Of a stretch of 64,000 bases of DNA, positions 9,001 through 64,000 are shown piece after piece. Source of the DNA: Xanthobacteraceae bacterium 501b (GTDB lineage: Bacteria > Pseudomonadota > Alphaproteobacteria > Rhizobiales > Xanthobacteraceae). Position 1 is the first letter of the stretch; each line of letters opens with the position of its first letter. The stretch is taken from the NCBI GenBank assembly GCA_000378025.1, contig KB899087.1, positions 496,001 to 560,000 of the forward strand, given 5' to 3'. Position numbers and translations under genes: made by a program. The notes beneath the pieces were generated by a model that saw only the letters and a list, made by a program, of their open reading frames with translations, had not been told where the DNA came from and ran no database searches.

Positions 9001-9067
9001 CCTCGCGGGATGGTCGGGCGGCGCCGCGCAGGGCCGCCCGATCAGCCGTATCAGCCGTTCAGGCGCA

Positions 9068-53622: not shown

Positions 53623-53979
53623 TCAGTGGCTGATCATCCACGGCCGGGCGGAGGGGAAACTCTTGGCGCCGCTGGCGGCGGTGGCGGTCTTGGATTTCTT
53701 GGTCCGGCTCTTCATGCCGCCGGCGCAGCAGGAGCAGCTCGACGGGTGCTTCTTCGCCGCGTATTCGCCCGTGGTCATCGGCGCGTGGCTTGCCCGCTCA
53801 TTGGTGGCGTGGGCTTGGAGGCTGTCGCGCGACATGCCGGAAAAATGCGGTGCTGTCAGCATCACCCGCGGGGCCATCGCGCCGCAATCCGGGCAGGGCT
53901 GGGGCGCCTGATACTCGCTCATCGGCCGCATGGCGGTGAAATCGCCGCAGCTGTCGCATTCATATTCGTAGACGGGCAT
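53623..53979 (-). CDS. fmdB: FmdB-type zinc-ribbon protein
   Basis: 118 residues from ATG 53979. It begins MPVYEYECDSCGDFTAMRPM and PQPCPDCGAMAPRVMLTAPH, the FmdB/DUF-type zinc ribbon with two Cys pairs. A second cysteine group (SSCSCCAGGMKSRTKKSKTA) and a basic tail follow. FmdB was named as a putative regulator in the formamidase operon of Methylophilus. Its place after fmdA supports the name; the mechanism is unknown. A 254-base gap with tandem hairpins separates the two genes. Confidence 0.85.
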   Translation of the reverse strand: MPVYEYECDSCGDFTAMRPMSEYQAPQPCPDCGAMAPRVMLTAPHFSGMSRDSLQAHATNERASHAPMTTGEYAAKKHPSSCSCCAGGMKSRTKKSKTATAASGAKSFPSARPWMISH

Positions 53980-54053
53980 GAGCGTGTCCTTCACTCGGCA
54001 TGGCGTTCGGGCGGGCCTTTGCTGCGGCCTTGTGTGCCCCTTGGGCGTTTCCT

Positions 54054-54213
54054 CGAAGGCAAGGGCGATGCCAGGCATCGCCCCGGAATCTTGGGAAGGG
54101 TGGGGCGATGCCGTTGGCGTCGCTCCAAATCTCTAGGAAGGAGCGGGGCGACGCCTTCGGCATCGCCCCAGAATCCTGAGGAAGAGCGGGGCGACGCTTC
54201 GCGCCGCCCCGCA
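54054..54213. repeat. Tandem 41-44 bp hairpin repeats between fmdA and fmdB
   Basis: Three tandem units start with GAATC-like sequence at 54086, 54127 and 54171, preceded by a partial one. Each holds a GC-rich hairpin such as GGGGCGACGCCTTCGGCATC with CGCCCC completing the stem. They fill the fmdA-fmdB gap and could stop or stabilise the message. Confidence 0.6.
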
Positions 54214-54233
54214 TGCACCGGACTAAGAGGGGG

Positions 54234-55463
54234 TCAAAGGTCCGGTGAAAGCGGCATGTCGATCGAGCCGTCGATGAACTTGGTCGGCCCGGCGGCGGTG
54301 GGGTTGATGTCGAAGTCGAAGATCTCGGTCGGCAGCCACAGCGTGGCGCAGGCGTTGGGGATGTCGACCACGCCGGAGATGTGGCCCTGCACCGGCGCTG
54401 TGCCGAGGATCGAATAGGCTTGGGCGCCGGAATAGCCGAACTTCTTCAGGTACTCGATGGCGTTGAGGCAGGCCTGGCGATAGGCGATGTGCACGTCGAG
54501 ATAGTGCTGGCCGCCATATTCGTCGACCGAGATGCCCTCGAAGATCAGGTAGTCCTTATAGTTCGGCGTCACCGGCGAGGGCTTGAAGATCGGGTTCTTG
54601 ATGCCGTACTTGGCCATGCCGCCCTTCAGCACCTCGACCTTGAGGTGTACCCAGCCGGCCATTTCGATGGCGCCGCAGAAGGTGATCTCGCCGTCGCCCT
54701 GGCTGAAATGCAGGTCGCCCATGGAGAGGCCGCCGCCTTCGACATAGACCGGGAAATAGATCTTGGAGCCGCGCGACAGGTCCTTGATGTCGCAATTGCC
54801 GCCATGCTCGCGCGGGGGAACGGTGCGCGCGCCGGTGGCGGCGGCGGCGGCCCGCGCGTCGCCGGTCAGCCGGCCCATATGGGCGGTGGCGGCGAAGGGC
54901 GGGACGGCGAGGGCGGGCACGCGGGTCGGGTTGGTGTCGATCAGCGCCTGCTCGCGGGTGTTCCAGGTCTCCAGCAGCTTCGGGTCGGGCAGGCAGCCGA
55001 TCAGGCCGGGGTGGATCAGCCCGGCGAAGTTCACGCCGGGGACGTGGCGGGAGGAGGTGTACATGCCCTTGAAGTCCCAGATCGACTTCTGGGCCAGCGG
55101 GAAATGGTCGGTCAGGAAGCCGCCGCCATTCTTCTTCGAGAAGAAGCCGTTGAAGCCCCACTGGCTGTCGGGCATGGCGCCGATGTCGAGCAGGTCGACC
55201 ACCAGCAGGTCGCCCGGCTCGGCGCCCTTGACGCCGATCGGGCCGGACAGGAAATGCACGATCGACAGGTCGATGTCGCGCACATCGTCGGCGGAATCGT
55301 TGTTCTTGATGAAGCCGCCGGTCCAGTCATAGGTCTCGACGATGAAATCGTCGCCCGGCTTCACCCAGGCCACCATCGGAATGTCCGGGTGCCAGCGGTT
55401 GTGAACCATGTCGTTGTCATAGGCCGACTGGTTCAGGTCAACTTTGATAAGCGTCTCGGTCAT
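54234..55463 (-). CDS. fmdA: Formamidase (FmdA/AmdA family)
   Basis: 409 residues, the usual length of formamidase. It starts MTETLIKVDLNQSAYDNDMV and shows MVAWVKPGDDFIVETYDWTG, FLSGPIGVKGAEPGDLLVVD, the FSKKNGGGFLTDHFPLAQKS region, EHGGNCDIKDLSRGSKIYFP and FSQGDGEITFCGAIEM, all conserved in the acetamidase/formamidase family. It hydrolyses formamide to formate and ammonia. Located directly after urtE, it gives the Urt-type importer a likely amide role. Confidence 0.93.
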   Translation of the reverse strand: MTETLIKVDLNQSAYDNDMVHNRWHPDIPMVAWVKPGDDFIVETYDWTGGFIKNNDSADDVRDIDLSIVHFLSGPIGVKGAEPGDLLVVDLLDIGAMPDSQWGFNGFFSKKNGGGFLTDHFPLAQKSIWDFKGMYTSSRHVPGVNFAGLIHPGLIGCLPDPKLLETWNTREQALIDTNPTRVPALAVPPFAATAHMGRLTGDARAAAAATGARTVPPREHGGNCDIKDLSRGSKIYFPVYVEGGGLSMGDLHFSQGDGEITFCGAIEMAGWVHLKVEVLKGGMAKYGIKNPIFKPSPVTPNYKDYLIFEGISVDEYGGQHYLDVHIAYRQACLNAIEYLKKFGYSGAQAYSILGTAPVQGHISGVVDIPNACATLWLPTEIFDFDINPTAAGPTKFIDGSIDMPLSPDL

Positions 55464-55528
55464 GCGTCTCTCTCCCCGGGTACGAACTGGAAGTTTGGGC
55501 AGGCTGGGAACGGCGGTCTGGCGGGGGC

Positions 55529-56218
55529 TCAGACCGAAAGGAATCGGGCGACCTTGGCCTCGTCGATGTCGGCGCGCTTGTCCTCGTGGACGATCTCGCC
55601 ATTCTCGATGACCAGTACCCGGTCGGCGATTTCGAGCGCGAAGGACAGCACCTGCTCGGACACCACGATGGAGAGGCCGCGCTCGTCGCGGATGCGCTTC
55701 AGCGTCCGCGCCATCTCTCGGATGATCGAGGGCTGGATGCCTTCCGTCGGCTCATCGAGCAGCAGCACCTTGGGCGCCGTGGCGAGCGCGCGGGCGATGG
55801 CGAGCTGCTGCTGCTGGCCGCCGGACAGATTGCCGCCGCGCCGGCCCTTCATCTCCAGAAGGACGGGGAACAGCTCGTAGATGTCGGGCGGCACCTTGCT
55901 CTCGCCGCGCGGGATGAGGCCGGTCTCGATGTTCTCCTGCACCGTCATGGTGGAGAAGATCATCCGGCCCTGAGGCACATAGGCGACGCCGTTCTTGACC
56001 CGCTCATAGCTCTTGAAGCGGGTGATATCGGTGCTGCCGACGCTTACCGTGCCGCTCTTGGTCGGCACGATGCCCATGAGCGACTTCATGAGCGTGGTCT
56101 TGCCCATGCCGTTGCGGCCCATGATGGCGATGATCTCGTTCGGCGCCACCTTGAAGTCGAGGCCGTGCAGAACCTCGCTCTCGCCATAGGAGACGTGCAG
56201 CCTGGATACGTTCAGCAT
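55529..56218 (-). CDS. urtE: Urt-type ABC transporter ATP-binding protein UrtE-like
   Basis: 229 residues, a LivF-type ATPase: SRLHVSYGESEVLHGLDFKV, Walker A MGRNGMGKTTLMKSLMGI, signature NLSGGQQQQLAIARAL and Walker B VLLLDEPTEGIQPS, the EGIQPSII form being typical of UrtE. It powers branched-chain/urea/amide import with UrtD. It lies 10 bases after urtD and ~65 bases before fmdA. Confidence 0.93.
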   Translation of the reverse strand: MLNVSRLHVSYGESEVLHGLDFKVAPNEIIAIMGRNGMGKTTLMKSLMGIVPTKSGTVSVGSTDITRFKSYERVKNGVAYVPQGRMIFSTMTVQENIETGLIPRGESKVPPDIYELFPVLLEMKGRRGGNLSGGQQQQLAIARALATAPKVLLLDEPTEGIQPSIIREMARTLKRIRDERGLSIVVSEQVLSFALEIADRVLVIENGEIVHEDKRADIDEAKVARFLSV

Positions 56219-56228
56219 GATCCGCCCC

Positions 56229-56996
56229 TCAATGGCCGAGATAGACTTCGACGACCTTCGGGTCCGCCTGGACCTTGGCCATCGAGCCTTCCGAGAGAAT
56301 CTTGCCCTGGTGCAGAACCGTCACCTTGTGGGCGATGTCCTCGACGAACTTCATGTCGTGCTCGATCACGATCACCGAGCGGTTCTTGATGATGGTGTTG
56401 AGCAGTTCGGCCGTCTTCTTGCGCTCGGAAACGCTCATGCCGGCCACCGGCTCGTCGAGCATGAGCAGTTCCGGGTCCTGGATCAGCAGCATGCCGATCT
56501 CCAGCCACTGCTTCTGGCCGTGCGAGAGATATTCGGCGCGCTGGTCGAGCTGGTCGGCGAGGAAGATGGTCTCGGCGATCTCCTGCACCCGCTCCTTCAC
56601 CGCCCGGTCGCGCCGGAAGGTCAGCGCCCCGGGCACCGAGCGGCCCTTGGGGTAGGAGATTTCCAGGTTCTCGAAGACGGTGAGGTCCTCATAGATCGAC
56701 GGGTTCTGGAACTTGCGCCCCACCCCGGCGCGCACGATCTCGTGCTCCTTCATCTTGGTCAGCTCGCGGTCCTTGAAGCGGATCGAGCCGGTGGTCGCCT
56801 TGGTGCGGCCGCAGATCAGATCGAGCACCGTGGTCTTGCCGGCCCCGTTGGGGCCGATGATGACGCGGATCTCGTTCTCATCGACGTAGAAGGACAGGTC
56901 GTTGACCGCCTTGAAGCCGTCGAAAGAGACGGTGAGGCCTTCCACCGCAAGGACGAAATCCTTGTTCATGGTGTCGGCGATGACAGCACTGTTCAT
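56229..56996 (-). CDS. urtD: Urt-type ABC transporter ATP-binding protein UrtD-like
   Basis: 255 residues from ATG 56996. LivG-type: LTVSFDGFKAVNDLSFYVDE, Walker A IGPNGAGKTTVLDLICGRT, GVGRKFQNPSIYEDLTVFEN, signature LSHGQKQWLEIGMLLIQDP (LSHGQKQWLE is the UrtD form of the signature) and Walker B LLMLDEPVAGMS. The open frame runs far upstream through urtC in another frame, which is an artefact of codon bias. It pairs with UrtE. Confidence 0.94.
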   Translation of the reverse strand: MNSAVIADTMNKDFVLAVEGLTVSFDGFKAVNDLSFYVDENEIRVIIGPNGAGKTTVLDLICGRTKATTGSIRFKDRELTKMKEHEIVRAGVGRKFQNPSIYEDLTVFENLEISYPKGRSVPGALTFRRDRAVKERVQEIAETIFLADQLDQRAEYLSHGQKQWLEIGMLLIQDPELLMLDEPVAGMSVSERKKTAELLNTIIKNRSVIVIEHDMKFVEDIAHKVTVLHQGKILSEGSMAKVQADPKVVEVYLGH

Positions 56997-57007
56997 GGCT
57001 CGCGCTC

Positions 57008-58180
57008 CTATTCGGCGGCGGCAGGGGCGGCCGCCGAGGGGGGCGGCGAGGCGGGCGGCGTCGCGGGAGGGCTGGCCCGGCGCGCGGCGGTGCCACCGAA
57101 GAGCGGGCCGAGGCGCGGAGCGATATAGGTCTGCCAGAGGCCGGCAATGCCGTTCGGGAAGATCAGCACCACCGCGATGAACAGGCCGCCGAGGCCGAAC
57201 AGCCAGAGCTCGGGGAAGCTCTCCGAGAACGAGGTCTTGGCCCAGTTCACCAGCAGCGTGCCGTAGATGGCGCCGAGGATGGACAGCCGCCCGCCGACCG
57301 CGGCGTAGATCACCATTTCGATCGAGGGCACGATGCCGACGAAGGAGGGCGACATGAAGCCGACCTGCAGGGTGAACATCGCCCCGCCAATGGCCGAGAG
57401 CGAAGCGGCGAGGCAGAACACGAACACCTTGAAATTGGCGACGTCGTAACCGGAGAAGCGCACCCGGTCCTCCTTGTCGCGCATGGCGACGAGGATGCGG
57501 CCGAGCTTCGAGGACTTCACGAAATAGGCGATCAGGATGCAGGCGATCAGCAGGGCGACGCAGACGAAATAGAGGATGGTCTTGGCGCTGTCGGTGCGGA
57601 TGTCCCAGCCGTTCAGCGTGCGCAGATCGGTGATGCCGTTGATACCGCCGGTATAGCCCTGCTGGCCGATGATCAGGATGGTCATGATCGCGGCGAGTGC
57701 CTGGGTGATGATGGCGAAGTACACGCCGCCCACCCGCCGCTTGAACATGGCGAAGCCGACGATGAAGGCGAACAGCGCCGGCACCAGGATCACCGCGATG
57801 AGGGTGAGGGTGAGGCTGTTGAAGGGCTGCCACATATAGGGCAGCTCGGTGATCTGGTTCCAGTCCATGAAGTCCGGGATGCCCGGCGTGGTCTGGATCT
57901 TGGTGGCCTCGACGCTGGAGGATTCCAGCTTGAGGAACATCGCCATGCAGTAGCCGCCAAGGCCGAAGAACACGCCCTGGCCGAGCGACAGAATGCCGGC
58001 ATAGCCCCAGCACAACACCAGGCCGAGCGCCACGAAGGCGTAGGTGAGGTATTTGCCGACGAATTGCAGGCGGAAATTGTCCAGCGTCAGCGGCAGGATC
58101 ACGATCAGCAGGAATGCGAGGACGGCGATCCCGATCATGTCCTGCGGGCGCAGGAAGAAGGTGCGGTCGGACTTGAACAT
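57008..58180 (-). CDS. urtC: Urt-type ABC transporter permease UrtC-like
   Basis: 390 residues with about ten membrane helices. LivM-type landmarks are GLVLCWGYAGILSLGQGVFF, GLGGYCMAMFLKL, VYFAIITQALAAIMTILIIG and SEMVIYAAVGGR-like PSIEMVIYAAVGGRLSILGA. A ~110-residue soluble loop after the third helix is typical of UrtC. The C-terminus is an Ala/Pro-rich tail. It forms the channel with UrtB; urtB ends 10 bases upstream. Confidence 0.93.
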   Translation of the reverse strand: MFKSDRTFFLRPQDMIGIAVLAFLLIVILPLTLDNFRLQFVGKYLTYAFVALGLVLCWGYAGILSLGQGVFFGLGGYCMAMFLKLESSSVEATKIQTTPGIPDFMDWNQITELPYMWQPFNSLTLTLIAVILVPALFAFIVGFAMFKRRVGGVYFAIITQALAAIMTILIIGQQGYTGGINGITDLRTLNGWDIRTDSAKTILYFVCVALLIACILIAYFVKSSKLGRILVAMRDKEDRVRFSGYDVANFKVFVFCLAASLSAIGGAMFTLQVGFMSPSFVGIVPSIEMVIYAAVGGRLSILGAIYGTLLVNWAKTSFSESFPELWLFGLGGLFIAVVLIFPNGIAGLWQTYIAPRLGPLFGGTAARRASPPATPPASPPPSAAAPAAAE

Positions 58181-58190
58181 GTGCGCCTCC

Positions 58191-59117
58191 TCAGCGACGG
58201 ACCTTGATGACGAACAGGCCCTGCGGCCGCAGCATCAGGATGATGACCACGCCGAGCAGCGTGAGGACCTTGGCCATCGAACCGGAGAGGAAGAACTCCA
58301 TGGTCGACTGGGCCTGCGAGATGGTGAAGGCGGAGGCGATGGTGCCGAGCAGGCTCTGCGCGCCGCCGAAGACGACGACCAGGAAGGTGTCGACGATGTA
58401 GAGCTGGCCGGAGGTGGGGCCGGTCGAGCCGATCATGGTGAAGGCTGACCCGGCGACGCCGGCAATGCCGCAGCCGAGGCCGAACGTGTAGCGGTCGACC
58501 TTCTCGGTATCGATGCCGACGGCGCCGGCCATGACGCGGTTCTGCACCACGGCGCGCACCTGCTTGCCCCAGGCCGATTTGTACATCAGCAGCGCGACAG
58601 CGACGGTGATGACGATGGTGAGGCCCATGACGAACAGGCCGTTGATCTGCACCTCGATCGTGTCGGTGACGGAGATCGAGCCCATCATCCAGTTCGGCAG
58701 CTCGACGCCGACCTCGCGCGGGCCGAAGACCGAGCGATAGAGCTGCTGAAGAATGAGGCTGAGGCCCCAGGTCGCGAGCAGCGTGTCGAGTGGGCGTTTG
58801 TAGAGCCGGCGGATCATCAGCCATTCCACCGCCATGCCGAGCGCCCCGGCGGCGAAGAAGGCCAGTATCATCGCGAGGAAGAAGTAGGCGCCGAACAAGC
58901 CGGGAAGGTAGTTCAGGAAAAATTGCGAAGTGAAATAGGTGACATAGGCGCCGAGAATCATGAACTCGCCATGCGCCATGTTGATGACGCCCATCTGGCC
59001 GAAGATGATGGCCAGGCCGAGGGCCATGAGGACGAAAACCGAGAACAGGATGAGGCCTGCGAAGCCCTGCATCACGAAAATCGAGCCAAGCTCGGCCAGC
59101 GAATAGTCAGCGAACAT
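58191..59117 (-). CDS. urtB: Urt-type ABC transporter permease UrtB-like
   Basis: 308 residues, eight or so membrane helices. LivH-type marks are LGLAIIFGQMGVINMAHGEF, MAVEWLMIRRLYKRPLDTLL and TWGLSLILQQLYRSVFGPRE, the last being characteristic of UrtB. It pairs with UrtC. The gap to urtA is 101 bases and holds a strong stem-loop, so expression of urtB onwards may be lower than that of urtA. Confidence 0.93.
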   Translation of the reverse strand: MFADYSLAELGSIFVMQGFAGLILFSVFVLMALGLAIIFGQMGVINMAHGEFMILGAYVTYFTSQFFLNYLPGLFGAYFFLAMILAFFAAGALGMAVEWLMIRRLYKRPLDTLLATWGLSLILQQLYRSVFGPREVGVELPNWMMGSISVTDTIEVQINGLFVMGLTIVITVAVALLMYKSAWGKQVRAVVQNRVMAGAVGIDTEKVDRYTFGLGCGIAGVAGSAFTMIGSTGPTSGQLYIVDTFLVVVFGGAQSLLGTIASAFTISQAQSTMEFFLSGSMAKVLTLLGVVIILMLRPQGLFVIKVRR

Positions 59118-59173
59118 TCAAGGTTCCCCCGGCGAGCGCGCAGTTGCGCGGTCTTGCGTCAACGGCAAAGAGC

Positions 59174-59202
59174 CCCGGAGAGGGCGCGGGGCCCTCTCCG
59201 GG
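59174..59202 (-). other. Intercistronic stem-loop between urtA and urtB
   Basis: CCCGGAGAGGGC, a GCGGG loop and GCCCTCTCCGGG form a perfect 12-bp stem just after urtA. There is no long T tract. In operons that begin with a binding protein such hairpins often protect the first message and lower the rest; that role here is inference. Confidence 0.7.
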
Positions 59203-59218
59203 TGGGAGTGTCAGGCGA

Positions 59219-60502
59219 TCACTGGTAGCCCTTCGGGAACGGATCGGGCTCGATCAGGTCCGGGGTCTCGTAGACGACCTTGAACTGGCCATCGGGCAGA
59301 GCGAGGCCGATGCGGGCCTTCGACCAGAGATGATGGTTGTCGTGGATCTTGACGTAGCCTTCCGGCGCCTTGTTGAACTCGATGCCGGCCGAGGCGGCGG
59401 CGATCTTGTCGATGTCGAAGGAGCCGGCCTTCTCGACGGTCATTTTCCACAGCCACGGGCCGAGATAGGCGGCCTGGGTGACGTCGCCGATCACGGTCTT
59501 CTCGCCCCACATCTTCTTGAAGGCGGCGACGAATTCCTTGTTGTTCGGGTTGTCGAGCGACTGGAAGTACTTCATCGAGCTGTAGGCGCCGGCGATGTTC
59601 TCGCCGCCGATGCCGTCGATCTCGTCCTCGGTGACCGAGATGGTCAGCAGGGTCTGCTTGTTGAGGTCGATGCCGGCCGCCTTCAGCTGCTTGTAGAAGG
59701 CGACGTTGGAGCCGCCGACGACGGCGGCGTAGATCACGTCCGGCTTCTTCAGCTTGATCTTGTTGATGACCGAGTTGAACTGGGTGTGGCCGAGCGGGAA
59801 ATACTCTTCGCCGACAACCGAGGAATCCTTCAGATGCCCCTCAATGTGCTTGCGGGCGATCTTCATCGAGGTGCGCGGCCAGATATAGTCTGAGCCGATG
59901 AGGTAGAAGGTCTTGCCGTTCTTGGTCTTGGCGACCCAGTCGAGGCCGGCGAGGATCTGCTGGGTGGCTTCCTGGCCGGTGTAGATGACGTTCTTGGACT
60001 GCTCCAGGCCTTCATAGAAGGTGGGGTAGTAGAGCATGCCGTTATACTGCTCGACCACCGGCAGCACCGCCTTGCGGGACGCCGAGGTCCAGCAGCCCAT
60101 GATGGCCGCGACCTTGTCGTTGACGAGGAGCTTCTTGGCCTTCTCGGCGAAGGTCGGCCAGTCGGAGGCGCCGTCTTCCTGGATGAACTTGATCTTGCGG
60201 CCGAGCACGCCGCCCATGGCGTTGATCTGGTCGATCGCCAGCTTTTCGGCCTGCACCGAGCCGGTCTCGGAGATAGCCATGGTGCCGGTGACGGAGTGCA
60301 GGATGCCGACGGTGACTTCCGTATCGGTAACGGCAAGGCCGGTGGTGTTCACCGCCGAGGTGGCGGGCGCCTGGGCCATGGCGGGTGTCGAAAAGAGGCC
60401 GGTGGACGCAAGAAGAGGCACCGCCGGCAGCGCCGCAATTCCCATCAAGAGCTTGCGCCGCGTCGTTGAAAACTTGTTCGATTGATCGTTTTGCGAAGAC
60501 AT
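59219..60502 (-). CDS. urtA: Urt/Fmd-type ABC transporter substrate-binding protein
   Basis: 427 residues from ATG 60502, with GGAGGGG just ahead (GTG 60517 is the longer choice). A twin-arginine-like signal (STTRRKLLMGIAALPAVPLL, cut after AMA-QA) exports it. The mature protein is type I periplasmic: VGILHSVTGTMAISETGSVQ, EDGASDWPTFAEKAKKLLVN, GCWTSASRKAVLPVVEQYNG and YIWPRTSMKIARKHIEGH, as in UrtA and FmdD. The ligand may be urea, formamide or a short amide; fmdA in the operon favours formamide or both. Confidence 0.92.
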   Translation of the reverse strand: MSSQNDQSNKFSTTRRKLLMGIAALPAVPLLASTGLFSTPAMAQAPATSAVNTTGLAVTDTEVTVGILHSVTGTMAISETGSVQAEKLAIDQINAMGGVLGRKIKFIQEDGASDWPTFAEKAKKLLVNDKVAAIMGCWTSASRKAVLPVVEQYNGMLYYPTFYEGLEQSKNVIYTGQEATQQILAGLDWVAKTKNGKTFYLIGSDYIWPRTSMKIARKHIEGHLKDSSVVGEEYFPLGHTQFNSVINKIKLKKPDVIYAAVVGGSNVAFYKQLKAAGIDLNKQTLLTISVTEDEIDGIGGENIAGAYSSMKYFQSLDNPNNKEFVAAFKKMWGEKTVIGDVTQAAYLGPWLWKMTVEKAGSFDIDKIAAASAGIEFNKAPEGYVKIHDNHHLWSKARIGLALPDGQFKVVYETPDLIEPDPFPKGYQ

Positions 60503-60594
60503 ACGATTCCCCTCCACGGGTTTGACGTGGCCTCAACAAGCTTCTCATGTGCTTGCATTGGCTGGATCGTGGCGGCCGATGTCGCGATGCAGCA

Positions 60595-60612
60595 ATACGT
60601 CGATTGACGTAT
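60595..60612. promoter_or_regulatory. Candidate response-regulator operator, ATACGTC-N4-GACGTAT
   Basis: ATACGTC, GATT, GACGTAT is a perfect 7-bp inverted repeat, 93 bases from the urtA start. Seven-base arms with a four-base centre resemble sites of LuxR/NarL-type response regulators. Its place upstream of urtA and the divergent hybrid kinase makes it a good candidate control site. Confidence 0.5.
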
Positions 60613-60698
60613 AGGGGAACCGTCTCTCCTCCCGCACAGTGGAGCCCAACATGGGATGTGTGTGTTTCCGCCAAGATGTTGGCGCGGGGCTGGAGATA

Positions 60699-60720
60699 TT
60701 TCTCGCGCGCGCGCGAGAAA
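60699..60720. other. 22-nt perfect palindrome with alternating CG core
   Basis: TTTCTCGCGCG followed directly by CGCGCGAGAAA is a perfect palindrome with a 12-base alternating CG centre. Such a tract can form a cruciform or Z-DNA and lies midway in the divergent control region. Its function is unknown. Confidence 0.5.
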
Positions 60721-60958
60721 AGATGTTTAGTTGATAAGCGTAATGGCTCGCCGTGCAGCCGTATTATTGGGCAGTCGGGTAGAGTTTTAGCAGATAGCGG
60801 TAATTAGATGCGTGTAGGTTCGTTGGAATGACTTTCTTTTGTCGGTCTCGCGCGAATGGAACGATTTATGCTTCGTTGTCCGGGGCGGCGATCGTGGCGG
60901 GCCGGAACTGACGTGGTGCAAAAACACGACATGCCCTGGGGAGGGTGAGCGCGGAAGA

Positions 60959-63900
60959 ATGTCTGGCGTTGGCACGGCGAGGCAAAACCCCATGGCGGCG
61001 GAGCAGAAGATCGTTCGCGTTCGGCGCCGCTATAATCAGTGGGTCGTCAACGAGACGCTGGAGGACTATGCGCTCCGCTTCACCGCCAAGAGCGCGCGCC
61101 GCTGGTCGGCGCTGCGCGTGGCCAATACCGCGCTCGGCGCCGTGTCGTTCCTGGCGCTGGAGGCGATCGGCGGGGCGATCACGCTGGCCTATGGCTTTCC
61201 AAACGCGGTGGCGGCGATCCTGGTGGTCTGCGTCGTCATCTTCGCCGCAGGCCTGCCGATCAGCTACTACGCCGCCAAGTTCGGCGTCGATATCGACCTG
61301 CTGACCCGCGGCGCCGGCTTCGGCTATATCGGCTCGACGCTCACCTCGCTGATCTACGCCTCCTTCACCTATCTGTTCTTCGCCATCGAGGCGGCGATCA
61401 TGGCGCTGGCGCTGGAGATGTGCTTCGGCGTGCCGCTGATGGTGGGCTATTTCATCAGCGCGCTGGTGGTGATCCCGCTGGTCACGCACGGCATCACCTT
61501 CATCAGCCGGTTCCAGCTGTGGACCCAGCCGGTCTGGCTAGTGCTGAACATCATTCCCTTCATTTTCATCTTCGCGCTCTATGACGCGCCGCTGGCCGGC
61601 TGGACCTCCTATACCGGCCGCTTCGGCGCCCCGGATGGCTCGTTCGACCTGGTGCTGTTCGGCACCGCGACCACCGTGGTGTTCGCGCTGATTGCGCAGA
61701 TTGGCGAGCAGGTGGATTTTCTCCGCTTCCTGCCCCGCCGGGCGCCGGGCCGCACCGAGACCCGGCGCAACGTGCTGTGGTGGGTGGCGCTGCTGAGCGC
61801 GGGGCCGGGCTGGATCATCCCCGGCGGCATCAAGATGCTGGCGGGCTCGTTCCTCGCCTATTTTGCCCTCACCCAGGGCATCCCCTTCCTGCACGCCGCC
61901 GAGCCGACCCAGATGTATCTGGTGGCGTTCAGGACGGTGTTTTCCCCCGAGCTGGCGCTGGCCTTCACCGGCTTGTTCGTCATCCTGGCGCAGCTCAAGA
62001 TCAATGTGACCAACGCCTATGCCGGCTCGATCGCCTGGTCGAACTTCTTCTCCCGCCTGACCCACAGCCATCCCGGCCGGGTGGTGTGGCTGGTGTTCAA
62101 CGTCACCATCGCGCTGATGCTGATGGCGCTCGGCATCTACAAGGTTCTGGAGCAGATCCTCGGGCTGTATTCCATCGTCGCGGTGGCCTGGGTGGCGGCG
62201 CTGGTGGCCGACCTCGTGGTCAACAAGCCGATGGGCTGGAGCCCGCCGGGCATCGAGTTCAAGCGGGCGCATCTCTACGACATTAACCCGGTGGGCGTCG
62301 GCGCGCTGCTGGCCGGCACGCTGATCGGCGTCATTGCCTTTGCCGGCTTCTTCGGCCCGACGCTGAAAGTGTTCGCGCCGTTCCTGGCGTTGGTGGTCTC
62401 CTTCGTCGCTGCGGCCGGCATCGCCTATGCCACCGGCGGGCGCTACTACATCGCGCGGCGGACGGCGAAGAACTGGGAGGCCCGCCACACGCTCAAATGC
62501 TGCATTTGCGAGCACAAGTTCGAGCCGGAGGACATGGCGCACTGCCCGGTCTATGCCGGCCCGATCTGCTCGCTGTGCTGCTCGCTGGATGCCCGCTGCA
62601 ACGACCGCTGCAAGGAGGATGCGCGCTTTCCCGAGCAGATTCTGGGCGCGCTGCGGGCCACCCTGCCGGGCTGGATGGTGGCGCAGCTCAATTCCCGGCT
62701 GGGCCATTATATCGGCGTGATGTCGCTGCTGGCGATCGTCATCGGCGGCATATTGGGCGTCATCTATTTCCAGTCGACCTTCGCGCCGCCCGACCAGACC
62801 GAGACGGTCGGCAATGTGCTGTTCACGCTCTATTTTATCCTTCTGATCATTGCCGGTGTCGCCGCCTGGCTGTTCGTGCTGGCGCAGGAGAGCCGGCGCG
62901 TGGCGCAGGAGGAGAGCAACCGCCAGACCGCGCTGCTGATGCGCGAGATCGAGGCGCACAAGCGCACCGACGCCAAGCTGCAGAAGGCCAAGGAGGCCGC
63001 CGAGGCCGCCAATCTCGCCAAGAGCCGCTATGTGGTCGGCATCAGCCACGAGCTGCGCACCCCGCTCAACGCGATCCTTGGCTATGCCCAGCTGCTGGAG
63101 CGCGATGTCGCCATTCCCCCGCACCGGCGCGACGCCATCCGCGTGGTGCGCCGCTCGGCCGAGCATCTGTCCGGCCTGATCGACGGGCTGCTCGACATCT
63201 CGAAAATCGAGGCCGGCCGGCTCTATCTCACCCGCGACGAGGTGCGGATCGGCGAGTTCCTCGACCAGCTGGTCGACATGTTCCGGCTGCAGGCCACCGC
63301 CAAGGGGATCGATTTCGTCTATGTCCGGCCCGATCGGTTACCCGGAACCGTCTTCACCGACGAGAAGCGGCTGCGGCAGATCCTCATCAACCTGCTCTCC
63401 AACGCCATCAAGTTCACCGAGCGCGGCCGGGTGGCGCTGCGCGTTTCCTATCGCAACCAGGTGGCGGAGTTCGAGATCGAGGACAGCGGCATCGGCATTC
63501 CCGCCGCCGACCACAAGCGCATCTTCGAGCCGTTCGAGCGCGGCGAGAGGGCGGGCACCTATTCGACCGCCGGCATCGGCCTCGGCCTCACCATCACCAA
63601 GCTGCTCACCGAGATCATGGGCGGGGAAATCTCGCTGAAATCGGCGCCGGGCGAGGGCAGCGTCTTCCGCGTCAAGATGATGCTGTCGGAAGTGACCAAC
63701 CCCTCGCGCCTCGGCCCGATCCAGCACCGGCATATCGCCGGCTACACCGGCCCGCGCCGCACCGTTCTGGTGGCCGATGACGATGTCGCCCATCGCGACC
63801 TGATGCACGAATTGCTGGTGCCGCTCGGCTTCACCGTGCTCGCCGCCTCGGACGGCGTGCAGGCGCTCGACATGGTGCGCGAATGGGAGCCGGACATGCT

Positions 63901-64000
63901 GCTGCTCGACATCGCCATGCCCGGCCTCAATGGCTGGGAGGTGGTGCGCCAGCTGCGCGACGAGGGCTTCGGGCGGCTGCGCATCATCATGATCTCCGCC
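60959..64000 (+). CDS. NCS1 permease-like hybrid sensor histidine kinase/response regulator (3' truncated)
   Basis: 1014 codons are open to the window end, with no stop. ATG 60959 is used; ATG 60992 is the other choice. Residues ~20-500 are a whole NCS1 purine/cytosine-permease-like domain of about twelve helices (GVDIDLLTRGAGFGYIGSTL; FTYLFFAIEAAIMALALEM; INVTNAYAGSIAWSNFFSRL). Residues 514-551 hold nine cysteines (KCCICEHKF, HCPVYAGPICSLCC, RCNDRCK), a likely metal site. Two more helices lie at ~573-640, then a coiled coil, HisKA with His697 in GISHELRTPLNAILGYAQLL, an N-box (RQILINLLSNAIKF), DSGIGIP and GIGLGLTITKLL, and a receiver with Asp940-942 and phosphoacceptor Asp984 in LLLDIAMPG. 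Divergent from urt-fmd, which it probably helps to control. Confidence 0.93.
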   Translation, partial: MSGVGTARQNPMAAEQKIVRVRRRYNQWVVNETLEDYALRFTAKSARRWSALRVANTALGAVSFLALEAIGGAITLAYGFPNAVAAILVVCVVIFAAGLPISYYAAKFGVDIDLLTRGAGFGYIGSTLTSLIYASFTYLFFAIEAAIMALALEMCFGVPLMVGYFISALVVIPLVTHGITFISRFQLWTQPVWLVLNIIPFIFIFALYDAPLAGWTSYTGRFGAPDGSFDLVLFGTATTVVFALIAQIGEQVDFLRFLPRRAPGRTETRRNVLWWVALLSAGPGWIIPGGIKMLAGSFLAYFALTQGIPFLHAAEPTQMYLVAFRTVFSPELALAFTGLFVILAQLKINVTNAYAGSIAWSNFFSRLTHSHPGRVVWLVFNVTIALMLMALGIYKVLEQILGLYSIVAVAWVAALVADLVVNKPMGWSPPGIEFKRAHLYDINPVGVGALLAGTLIGVIAFAGFFGPTLKVFAPFLALVVSFVAAAGIAYATGGRYYIARRTAKNWEARHTLKCCICEHKFEPEDMAHCPVYAGPICSLCCSLDARCNDRCKEDARFPEQILGALRATLPGWMVAQLNSRLGHYIGVMSLLAIVIGGILGVIYFQSTFAPPDQTETVGNVLFTLYFILLIIAGVAAWLFVLAQESRRVAQEESNRQTALLMREIEAHKRTDAKLQKAKEAAEAANLAKSRYVVGISHELRTPLNAILGYAQLLERDVAIPPHRRDAIRVVRRSAEHLSGLIDGLLDISKIEAGRLYLTRDEVRIGEFLDQLVDMFRLQATAKGIDFVYVRPDRLPGTVFTDEKRLRQILINLLSNAIKFTERGRVALRVSYRNQVAEFEIEDSGIGIPAADHKRIFEPFERGERAGTYSTAGIGLGLTITKLLTEIMGGEISLKSAPGEGSVFRVKMMLSEVTNPSRLGPIQHRHIAGYTGPRRTVLVADDDVAHRDLMHELLVPLGFTVLAASDGVQALDMVREWEPDMLLLDIAMPGLNGWEVVRQLRDEGFGRLRIIMISA

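Follow-up and report, generated by a model that had tools for sequence, protein, structure and literature searches.

What is sensed, imported and hydrolysed by the products of a divergent gene cluster in which urea-type transporter genes stand beside a formamidase gene and opposite the gene of a histidine kinase with a transporter-like membrane half? The cluster lies in a window of 64,000 nucleotides from Xanthobacteraceae bacterium 501b (C1:496001-560000 of the 5.1-Mb genome; coordinates above 64000 are obtained by counting on past the end of the window). Seven genes, urtABCDE-fmdA-fmdB, are all read from the minus strand, as an earlier note on this DNA had proposed, and their products probably import and split formamide. 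The kinase gene is divergent from them, and the shared control region measures exactly the 456 bp given in that note (60503..60958), between the urtA start at 60502 and the kinase ATG at 60959. A LuxR-type regulator, which the note had suggested looking for just past 64000, is present there. We consider it probable that these genes constitute a dedicated two-component system in which formamide-type amides are sensed via the transporter-like domain of the kinase and their uptake and hydrolysis are switched on. The kinase that would regulate the operon looks new, while the operon itself is of a known, ordinary kind.

The kinase gene starts at 60959 on the plus strand, runs on to 64381, which is 381 bp outside the window, and encodes a protein of 1140 aa. 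Residues 1-500 (60959..62458) form an NCS1-like transmembrane sensor domain, residues 506-560 (62474..62638) carry an eight-cysteine module, and residues 561 onward (62639..64000 within the window) comprise predicted helices followed by the domains of a hybrid kinase, matched in Pfam as HisKA (E 1.3e-17), HATPase_c (5.1e-27) and REC (5.2e-19). Residues 1-504 matched no Pfam family at E up to 10, PF02133 included; a sequence search of the PDB with a 54-row profile of the sensor half gave no match at E <=1. Since the Pfam and PDB sequence searches gave nothing, the kinship with NCS1 transporters rests on a fold match and an intermediate protein. In the AlphaFold2 model of the kinase (pLDDT 79.9, pTM 0.82), the sensor half resembles the NCS1 transporters CodB (Z 34.1, rmsd 3.4, 397 aligned) and Mhp1 (Z 29.4, rmsd 4.2, 435 aligned), whereas the best non-NCS1 row in the fold comparison has Z 23.2 and the listed SLC5 structures have Z ~20-22. 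The intermediate protein, L100 from genome G193, is a transporter without a kinase that passes PF02133 (36.4 vs a cut-off of 23.5) and aligns with the kinase profile in hhalign at E 1.6e-31 and 31% identity; a phmmer search of L100 against the PDB gave a chance match only. By its modelled fold and this intermediate homology, the sensor half is placed with the NCS1 transporters rather than with SLC5, and the name NCS1-kinase, which the earlier note had used, is right, though the Pfam scan misses NCS1.

The eight cysteines between the NCS1-like domain and the kinase are invariant in 27/27 and 54/54 aligned rows. When 398 genomes were searched with the module only (a 41-row profile, its rows being a subset of the 54; at most 16 candidates scored per genome), all 58 strong matches (E up to 5.8e-17) fell in the 58 kinase loci described below, and five weak matches (E above 0.003) were taken as noise; judged by its profile, the module is private to this kinase family within that search. 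The module model (pLDDT 75) shows a weak likeness to RING/FYVE-type zinc fingers (best E 0.37, best Z 4.0), many of the top rows being zinc fingers, and the module may bind zinc. In three urease-linked loci (L062, L097 and L098, from G019, G389 and, as its second kinase, G379), the kinase match is split, with extra length separating the transporter-like domain from the cysteine module, which points to an insert at that place.

In the mechanism that we propose, the NCS1-transporter-like membrane domain of the kinase would bind (or transport) a small amide, the binding would shift the conformation of this domain, and the eight-cysteine module with the helices after it would relay the signal to the histidine kinase. 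Phosphate would then pass to the LuxR-type regulator, whose gene comes next and overlaps that of the kinase. This REC-GerE (LuxR/NarL-type) protein of 310 aa is encoded beyond the window at 64371-65303 (L011:4372-5304), and the 5' end of its gene overlaps the kinase stop by 11 bases. The regulator would bind a palindrome upstream of urtA and activate urtABCDE-fmdA(-fmdB), whose products would import the amide and hydrolyse it to ammonia and formate. In this scheme we infer the ligand, the direction of the signal, the phosphotransfer route, the occupancy of the operator and activation rather than repression. Its parts differ in strength: control of the operon by the kinase and the regulator through the palindrome is, on sequence evidence, highly probable, and we lean, with somewhat less confidence, towards the view that the NCS1 domain itself senses a formamide-type amide.

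Gene content, homology, fold, linkage and the conserved palindrome were computed. For the linkage, the kinase residues 1-654 served as the query against 398 Pseudomonadota genomes, and relatives (E <=1e-10) turned up in 54 of them. Neighbourhoods of up to ~20 kb were then taken at 60 places, two of which lie in the home genome; a fragment in G236 was left out. Two of the places (L100 and L101) hold no kinase, which leaves 58 kinase loci, 2 of them cut by contig ends. FmdA is in view at 39 of the 58, in 36 cases with urt genes of the amide branch (type 1) and in 3, which form a paralogue class, without urt. Urease genes are in view at 14 loci and a urea-type UrtA only at 3 more, where UreC lies ~10-16 kb off in all 3, so that urease is found within 16 kb at 17 loci. 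Each of the 56 uncut loci has a formamidase, urease or both within ~16 kb. The linkage with urease in other genomes goes beyond the earlier note. Viewed by genome, FmdA exceeds the equivalog cut-off (NF045496) in 40 of the 398, and 39 of these 40 have the kinase, whereas the kinase query matches 15 of the 358 genomes without such an FmdA (Fisher's test on these proportions ignores relatedness). Among those 15, G175 contributes a remote transporter and G236 the fragment; of the other 13, 12 have urease and G224 does not. Urease is present in 144/398 genomes, and thus the kinase is not needed for urease.

The same arrangement recurs in a set of named species (one genome per species, the best 80 of at least 579 relatives), in which 57 loci carry FmdA, type-1 urt, FmdB and the regulator together. 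Seven (L138 and six whose stretches are truncated by the end of a contig) have type-1 urt without FmdA in view, 13 have type-2 (urea) urt, with urease in view in 7 and not in 6, and three, namely L177 and two loci on short contigs, have no FmdA, urt or urease in view. No locus among the 80 combines FmdA with type-2 urt. Over both sets (138 loci), the regulator lies 1-3 kb downstream of the kinase in 134, the exceptions being the three paralogues and the contig-end locus L172; urtA is divergent from the kinase within 1 kb in 114, lies elsewhere in 10 and is out of view in 14, and the divergent pairing is well above chance. The conserved linkage of the kinase with urt and fmd genes, on which the earlier note had made its reading depend, is therefore found, and its proposal of a self-contained system for sensing, uptake and hydrolysis of amides is supported by this linkage, by the palindrome upstream of urtA and by the LuxR-type regulator. 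It also speaks for the proposed system that a paralogous kinase of the home genome adjoins a formamidase gene. A single locus, in G360 (L215 3402-11001/L059), was seen with both FmdA and urease and is counted among the 14 urease-gene loci; there fmdA-fmdB-urtABCDE-ureD through urease, kinase and regulator form one cluster, and the urt genes are of type 1.

The urease-linked relatives make it possible to follow the partners of the kinase over a tree. We built it from 98 non-redundant sensor halves, obtained from the 138 after removing near-duplicates at >=90% identity (L044, a short duplicate of L063, L100 and L101, which hold no kinase, and the G236 fragment were left out). On this tree, 22 kinases have urease or a urea-type urt as partner and are spread over five separate groups, and the well-supported branches alone require five partner changes, compared with 20 when the labels are shuffled (0/500 as low), which suggests at least five switches between formamidase and urease. 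At position 338 of the transporter-like domain, the majority residue in the five urease clades is A, A, C, A and A, each rare in the amide class, as opposed to G in 48/69 amide-linked kinases, and random sets of five amide clades matched this at some column in 1/300 draws; the kinase of the hybrid G360 locus has V there. The switches may reflect a change of ligand or an exchange of neighbouring genes, and either would come naturally with a domain that reads the substrate. Since sister kinases stand beside urease, small amides, formamide and urea among them, are probably what the NCS1-like kinase family senses. A more general and tentative idea is that widespread prokaryotic transceptors of this kind use NCS1-type cores as direct receptors of formamide or urea, coupled to histidine kinases via a private zinc-type cysteine module, and that they switched preference at least five times, with residue 338 changing recurrently and the operator type kept; we hold this to be somewhat less probable than its negation.

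It is also conceivable that the NCS1 half is a working low-affinity amide or urea transporter and that the kinase senses a cytoplasmic signal, such as nitrogen status or, at the cysteine module, a metal or redox state, with the regulator still controlling the operon. There is precedent for it, as histidine uptake has been reported for CbrA, whose SLC5 domain is reportedly dispensable for perceiving the signal (PMC13022988, PMC9100948). The placement of eight invariant cysteines between transporter and kinase and the 31% identity of the NCS1-like domain to the transporter-only L100 agree with such a division of labour. However, the partners of the kinase track the substrate, formamidase or urease, through at least five switches, and no such tracking would be required by a generic signal of nitrogen or redox state; position 338, at which all five urease clades have a majority residue unlike that of the amide class, lies in the transporter-like domain. 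We therefore judge a cytoplasmic signal to be unlikely, though deserving of serious consideration, and prefer direct sensing of the amide by the NCS1-like domain.

The predicted operator ATACGTCGATTGACGTAT (60595..60612, plus strand) is a conserved palindrome that precedes the urtA start codon by 93-110 bp. It was both discovered and first tested in 79 non-redundant control regions, in which the 18-bp form ATACGTCA-N2-TGACGTAT occurs with <=3 mismatches in 16 positions at 51/79 regions vs 1/395 shuffles, and the looser form ATACGY-N6-RCGTAT, with <=1 mismatch in 12, at 57/79 regions vs 2/790 block shuffles and 2/1580 Markov sequences. Given this double use of the regions, independent tests weigh more. 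At the 10 loci where urtA lies away from the kinase, which were not used for motif discovery, a site with <=1 mismatch is present just upstream of urtA in 7 and absent from L080, L085 and L086. The home genome contains one site with 0 mismatches to ATACGTCNNNTGACGTAT, that of the window at 60595-60612; the other sites have 3 mismatches and are at about the level expected by chance (19 strand matches in all vs 13 for the reversed control). A scan of the control region for Sigma-70 promoters found 0, and no direct repeat occurs in more than 3 of the control regions. Several Bradyrhizobium-like and Methylobacterium loci (e.g., L046, L070, L148) have the variant ATACGC-N6-GCGTAT instead of ATACGT-N6-ACGTAT, and in G360 a palindrome with 1 mismatch lies ~1.3 kb before fmdA.

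Palindromes of such size suit several regulator families, and this one stays with urtA even where the kinase is some kb distant, so it might belong to another regulator, e.g., a GntR- or TetR-type repressor encoded elsewhere, and not to the LuxR-type protein. This we regard as unlikely. The palindrome accompanies both partner classes, with <=3 mismatches at 8/10 urea-type and 43/69 amide-type regions (L067, whose partial urtA is of type 1, being counted as amide-type), and the three paralogue loci with an OmpR-type regulator have no site with <=1 mismatch.

The LuxR-type regulator would thus govern an operon whose seven proteins, all encoded on the minus strand, exceed their NCBIfam cut-offs. 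Read from the control region, these are the UrtA-type binding protein of type 1 (59219..60502; TIGR03407, 539.5 bits with a cut-off of 492.75), the UrtB-type permease (58191..59117; TIGR03409, 393.1 and 250.3), the UrtC-type permease (57008..58180; TIGR03408, 445.8 and 296.2), the UrtD-type ATPase (56229..56996; TIGR03411, 383.8 and 304.1), the UrtE-type ATPase (55529..56218; TIGR03410, 332.9 and 285.8), the FmdA formamidase of 409 aa (54234..55463; NF045496, 770.3 and 500, residues 3-406; PF03069, E 8.3e-183) and the zinc-ribbon protein FmdB of 118 aa with a RPWMISH C-terminal domain (53623..53979; NF053663, 150.8 and 120; TIGR02605, 55.6 and 31.3). The intergenic gaps from urtA through fmdB are 101, 10, 11, 10, 65 and 254 bp, and because of the last one FmdB is the least certain member of a single transcript. 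The RPWMISH domain is a conserved C-terminus. At the N-terminus of UrtA (window 60450-60502), the sequence STTRRKLLMG resembles a twin-arginine export signal.

The probable ligand of this operon was judged from the home genome and from the relatives of FmdA and UrtA in the PDB. The earlier note had argued that, with no urease genes in the window, formamide or a short amide rather than urea may be the main ligand. The window indeed holds none, and this argument, being weak, was dropped, as two urease loci are present elsewhere in the genome (C1:1764616 and C1:4671497). A better argument for the same preference is that another urt stands beside a home urease: the locus at 1.76-1.77 Mb has adjoining urt genes, and its UrtA scores 561.7 bits vs 540 for that of the window, while the locus at 4.67 Mb has no urt in view. 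Neither urease locus is near a kinase of this family. That one home urease has its own urea urt supports an amide role for the urt genes of the window. FmdA matches PDB 2wkn, deposited as formamidase, with 807.8 bits over residues 1-408, and the PDB relatives of UrtA are 8tg1 (422 bits, the best), the urea UrtA 7s6e (341) and AmiC 1pea (153). From the closeness of FmdA to 2wkn, the higher-scoring UrtA at the urease-linked urt and the position of the window UrtA nearest to 8tg1, formamide or a short amide appears more likely than urea as the ligand, although the kinase could still read urea or nitrogen status. That urea is the main imported and sensed ligand, with FmdA being secondary or detoxifying formamide, is decidedly unlikely: all five transporter subunits do pass the urea cut-offs TIGR03407-03411, which is a matter of ancestry and not of substrate, but the home genome has the second urt with the higher-scoring UrtA beside urease and without the kinase, FmdA never occurs with type-2 urt in the examined loci, the G360 locus with FmdA and urease carries type-1 urt, and the authors of SIMBAL argued likewise for Bradyrhizobium japonicum (PMC3098086).

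Several observations weigh against a dedicated amide-sensing system. The type-1 UrtA is still above the cut-off for urea UrtA, as are the other four transporter subunits above theirs. The FmdA genome G114 lacks the kinase, with no urt, kinase or palindrome within 20 kb of its FmdA gene, and L177 (Azospirillum sp. TSO35-2), which has full flanks, carries the kinase and the regulator with no FmdA, urt, urease or palindrome in view. Shared nitrogen control might account for the linkage. The tree was built quickly and leaves 24/95 forks open, and gene exchange alone may explain the switches. Residue 338 is no clean marker (amide class G48 V12 T8 A3 in 71 rows, urease class A16 C4 V2), and the 14 columns that differ in >=3 of the five urease groups, with a null mean of 1.27, equal the null maximum of 14. 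Nine of the 79 control regions have >=3 mismatches to the palindrome. The kinase has a REC domain and no Hpt match in Pfam, which leaves several phosphate routes possible. Since the transporter domain of CbrA is reported as dispensable for perception, the analogy with this kinase does not show that the NCS1 domain senses.

Some features of the neighbourhood and of single loci stand apart from this argument. Past the regulator (L011 5320-9617) there are a DUF779 gene, an aldehyde dehydrogenase gene and a divergent GAF/sigma-54 activator gene, which we regard as a unit of their own. Over its N-terminal 654 residues, the kinase is 98% identical to one from Ancylobacter dichloromethanicus, which places the source strain in Ancylobacter or close to it. 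The second formamidase locus of the home genome (L010 4604-13216, C1:1460603-1469215) encodes the paralogous NCS1-type kinase, which lacks REC, together with a REC-kinase, an OmpR-type regulator, an amidase and a second FmdA (70% identical), with no urt in view; its kinase, REC-kinase, regulator and FmdA genes are arranged in the same way in L061 and L096. In L085 (G340), the kinase gene near 9004 contains one in-frame TAG, which is either a sequencing error or a real disruption.

Operons of this kind have been described before. In Methylophilus methylotrophus, fmdCABDEF (Wyborn 1996, Mills 1998, as cited in a review) is reported to be induced by formamide and urea; that cluster has an outer-membrane porin and a putative positive regulator, and the review passage names no sensor kinase (PMC10781810). 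The combination typical of the Methylophilus amide operon, i.e., formamidase, FmdB and amide-type ABC uptake genes together, is found at the window locus, and the window would, if our reading is true, supply sensor, regulator and binding site in one gene set for fmd-type induction. B. japonicum blr0968-blr0973 is like the window operon in having UrtB/C-like permeases beside a PF03069 formamidase, and the authors of SIMBAL argued in 2010 that its transporter serves amide rather than urea; it differs in that an adjoining amidase gene is named, with no regulator discussed in the passage concerned (PMC3098086). Pseudomonas veronii Yu15, which uses formamide as sole nitrogen source, has chromosomal amiE, fmdA, fmdB and urtABCDE, the gene set of the window plus amiE; its transporter was proposed in 2026 to import formamide, and the term "histidine kinase" occurs 0 times in the text of that account (PMC13209695). 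The urt operon III of Ectopseudomonas guguanensis G3 is alike in having fmdA, urtABCDE and two regulator genes that are adjacent by locus numbers, and a figure legend of the 2026 genome paper names a hybrid kinase and a LuxR-type regulator; unlike here, the operon is read as a urea system and the sensor domain is not identified in that account (PMC13296017). If our reading holds, amide uptake is probably what many "urea ABC transporter" annotations next to this kinase stand for.

As for the kinase, CbrA and CrbS/RpuS are like it in fusing a solute-symporter domain to a histidine kinase, and RpuS is paired with a LuxR-family regulator; they differ in that CbrA-type kinases combine SLC5, STAC and PAS, whereas the window kinase combines an NCS1-like domain with the eight-cysteine module (PMC13022988, PMC9100948). 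Pfam scans of the window kinase gave no STAC entry and no PAS match, with no search aimed at STAC being made. In the literature covered, which includes few subscription journals, we found no account of an NCS1-type kinase in connection with formamidase or urease. Reported cases of transporter-like receptors are called extremely few in a study that leaves out STAC-linked ones such as CbrA and in whose text NCS1 appears 0 times (PMC11109136). The ammonium sensor kinase of Kuenenia likewise joins a transporter domain for a nitrogen compound to a histidine kinase and differs in using an ammonium transporter, not an NCS1 protein for amides (PMC5764959). If true, the reading proposed here would extend the small number of listed bacterial receptors derived from transporters by an NCS1 class, and the natural replicate switches between two tiny ligands would be useful for understanding how such a receptor chooses.

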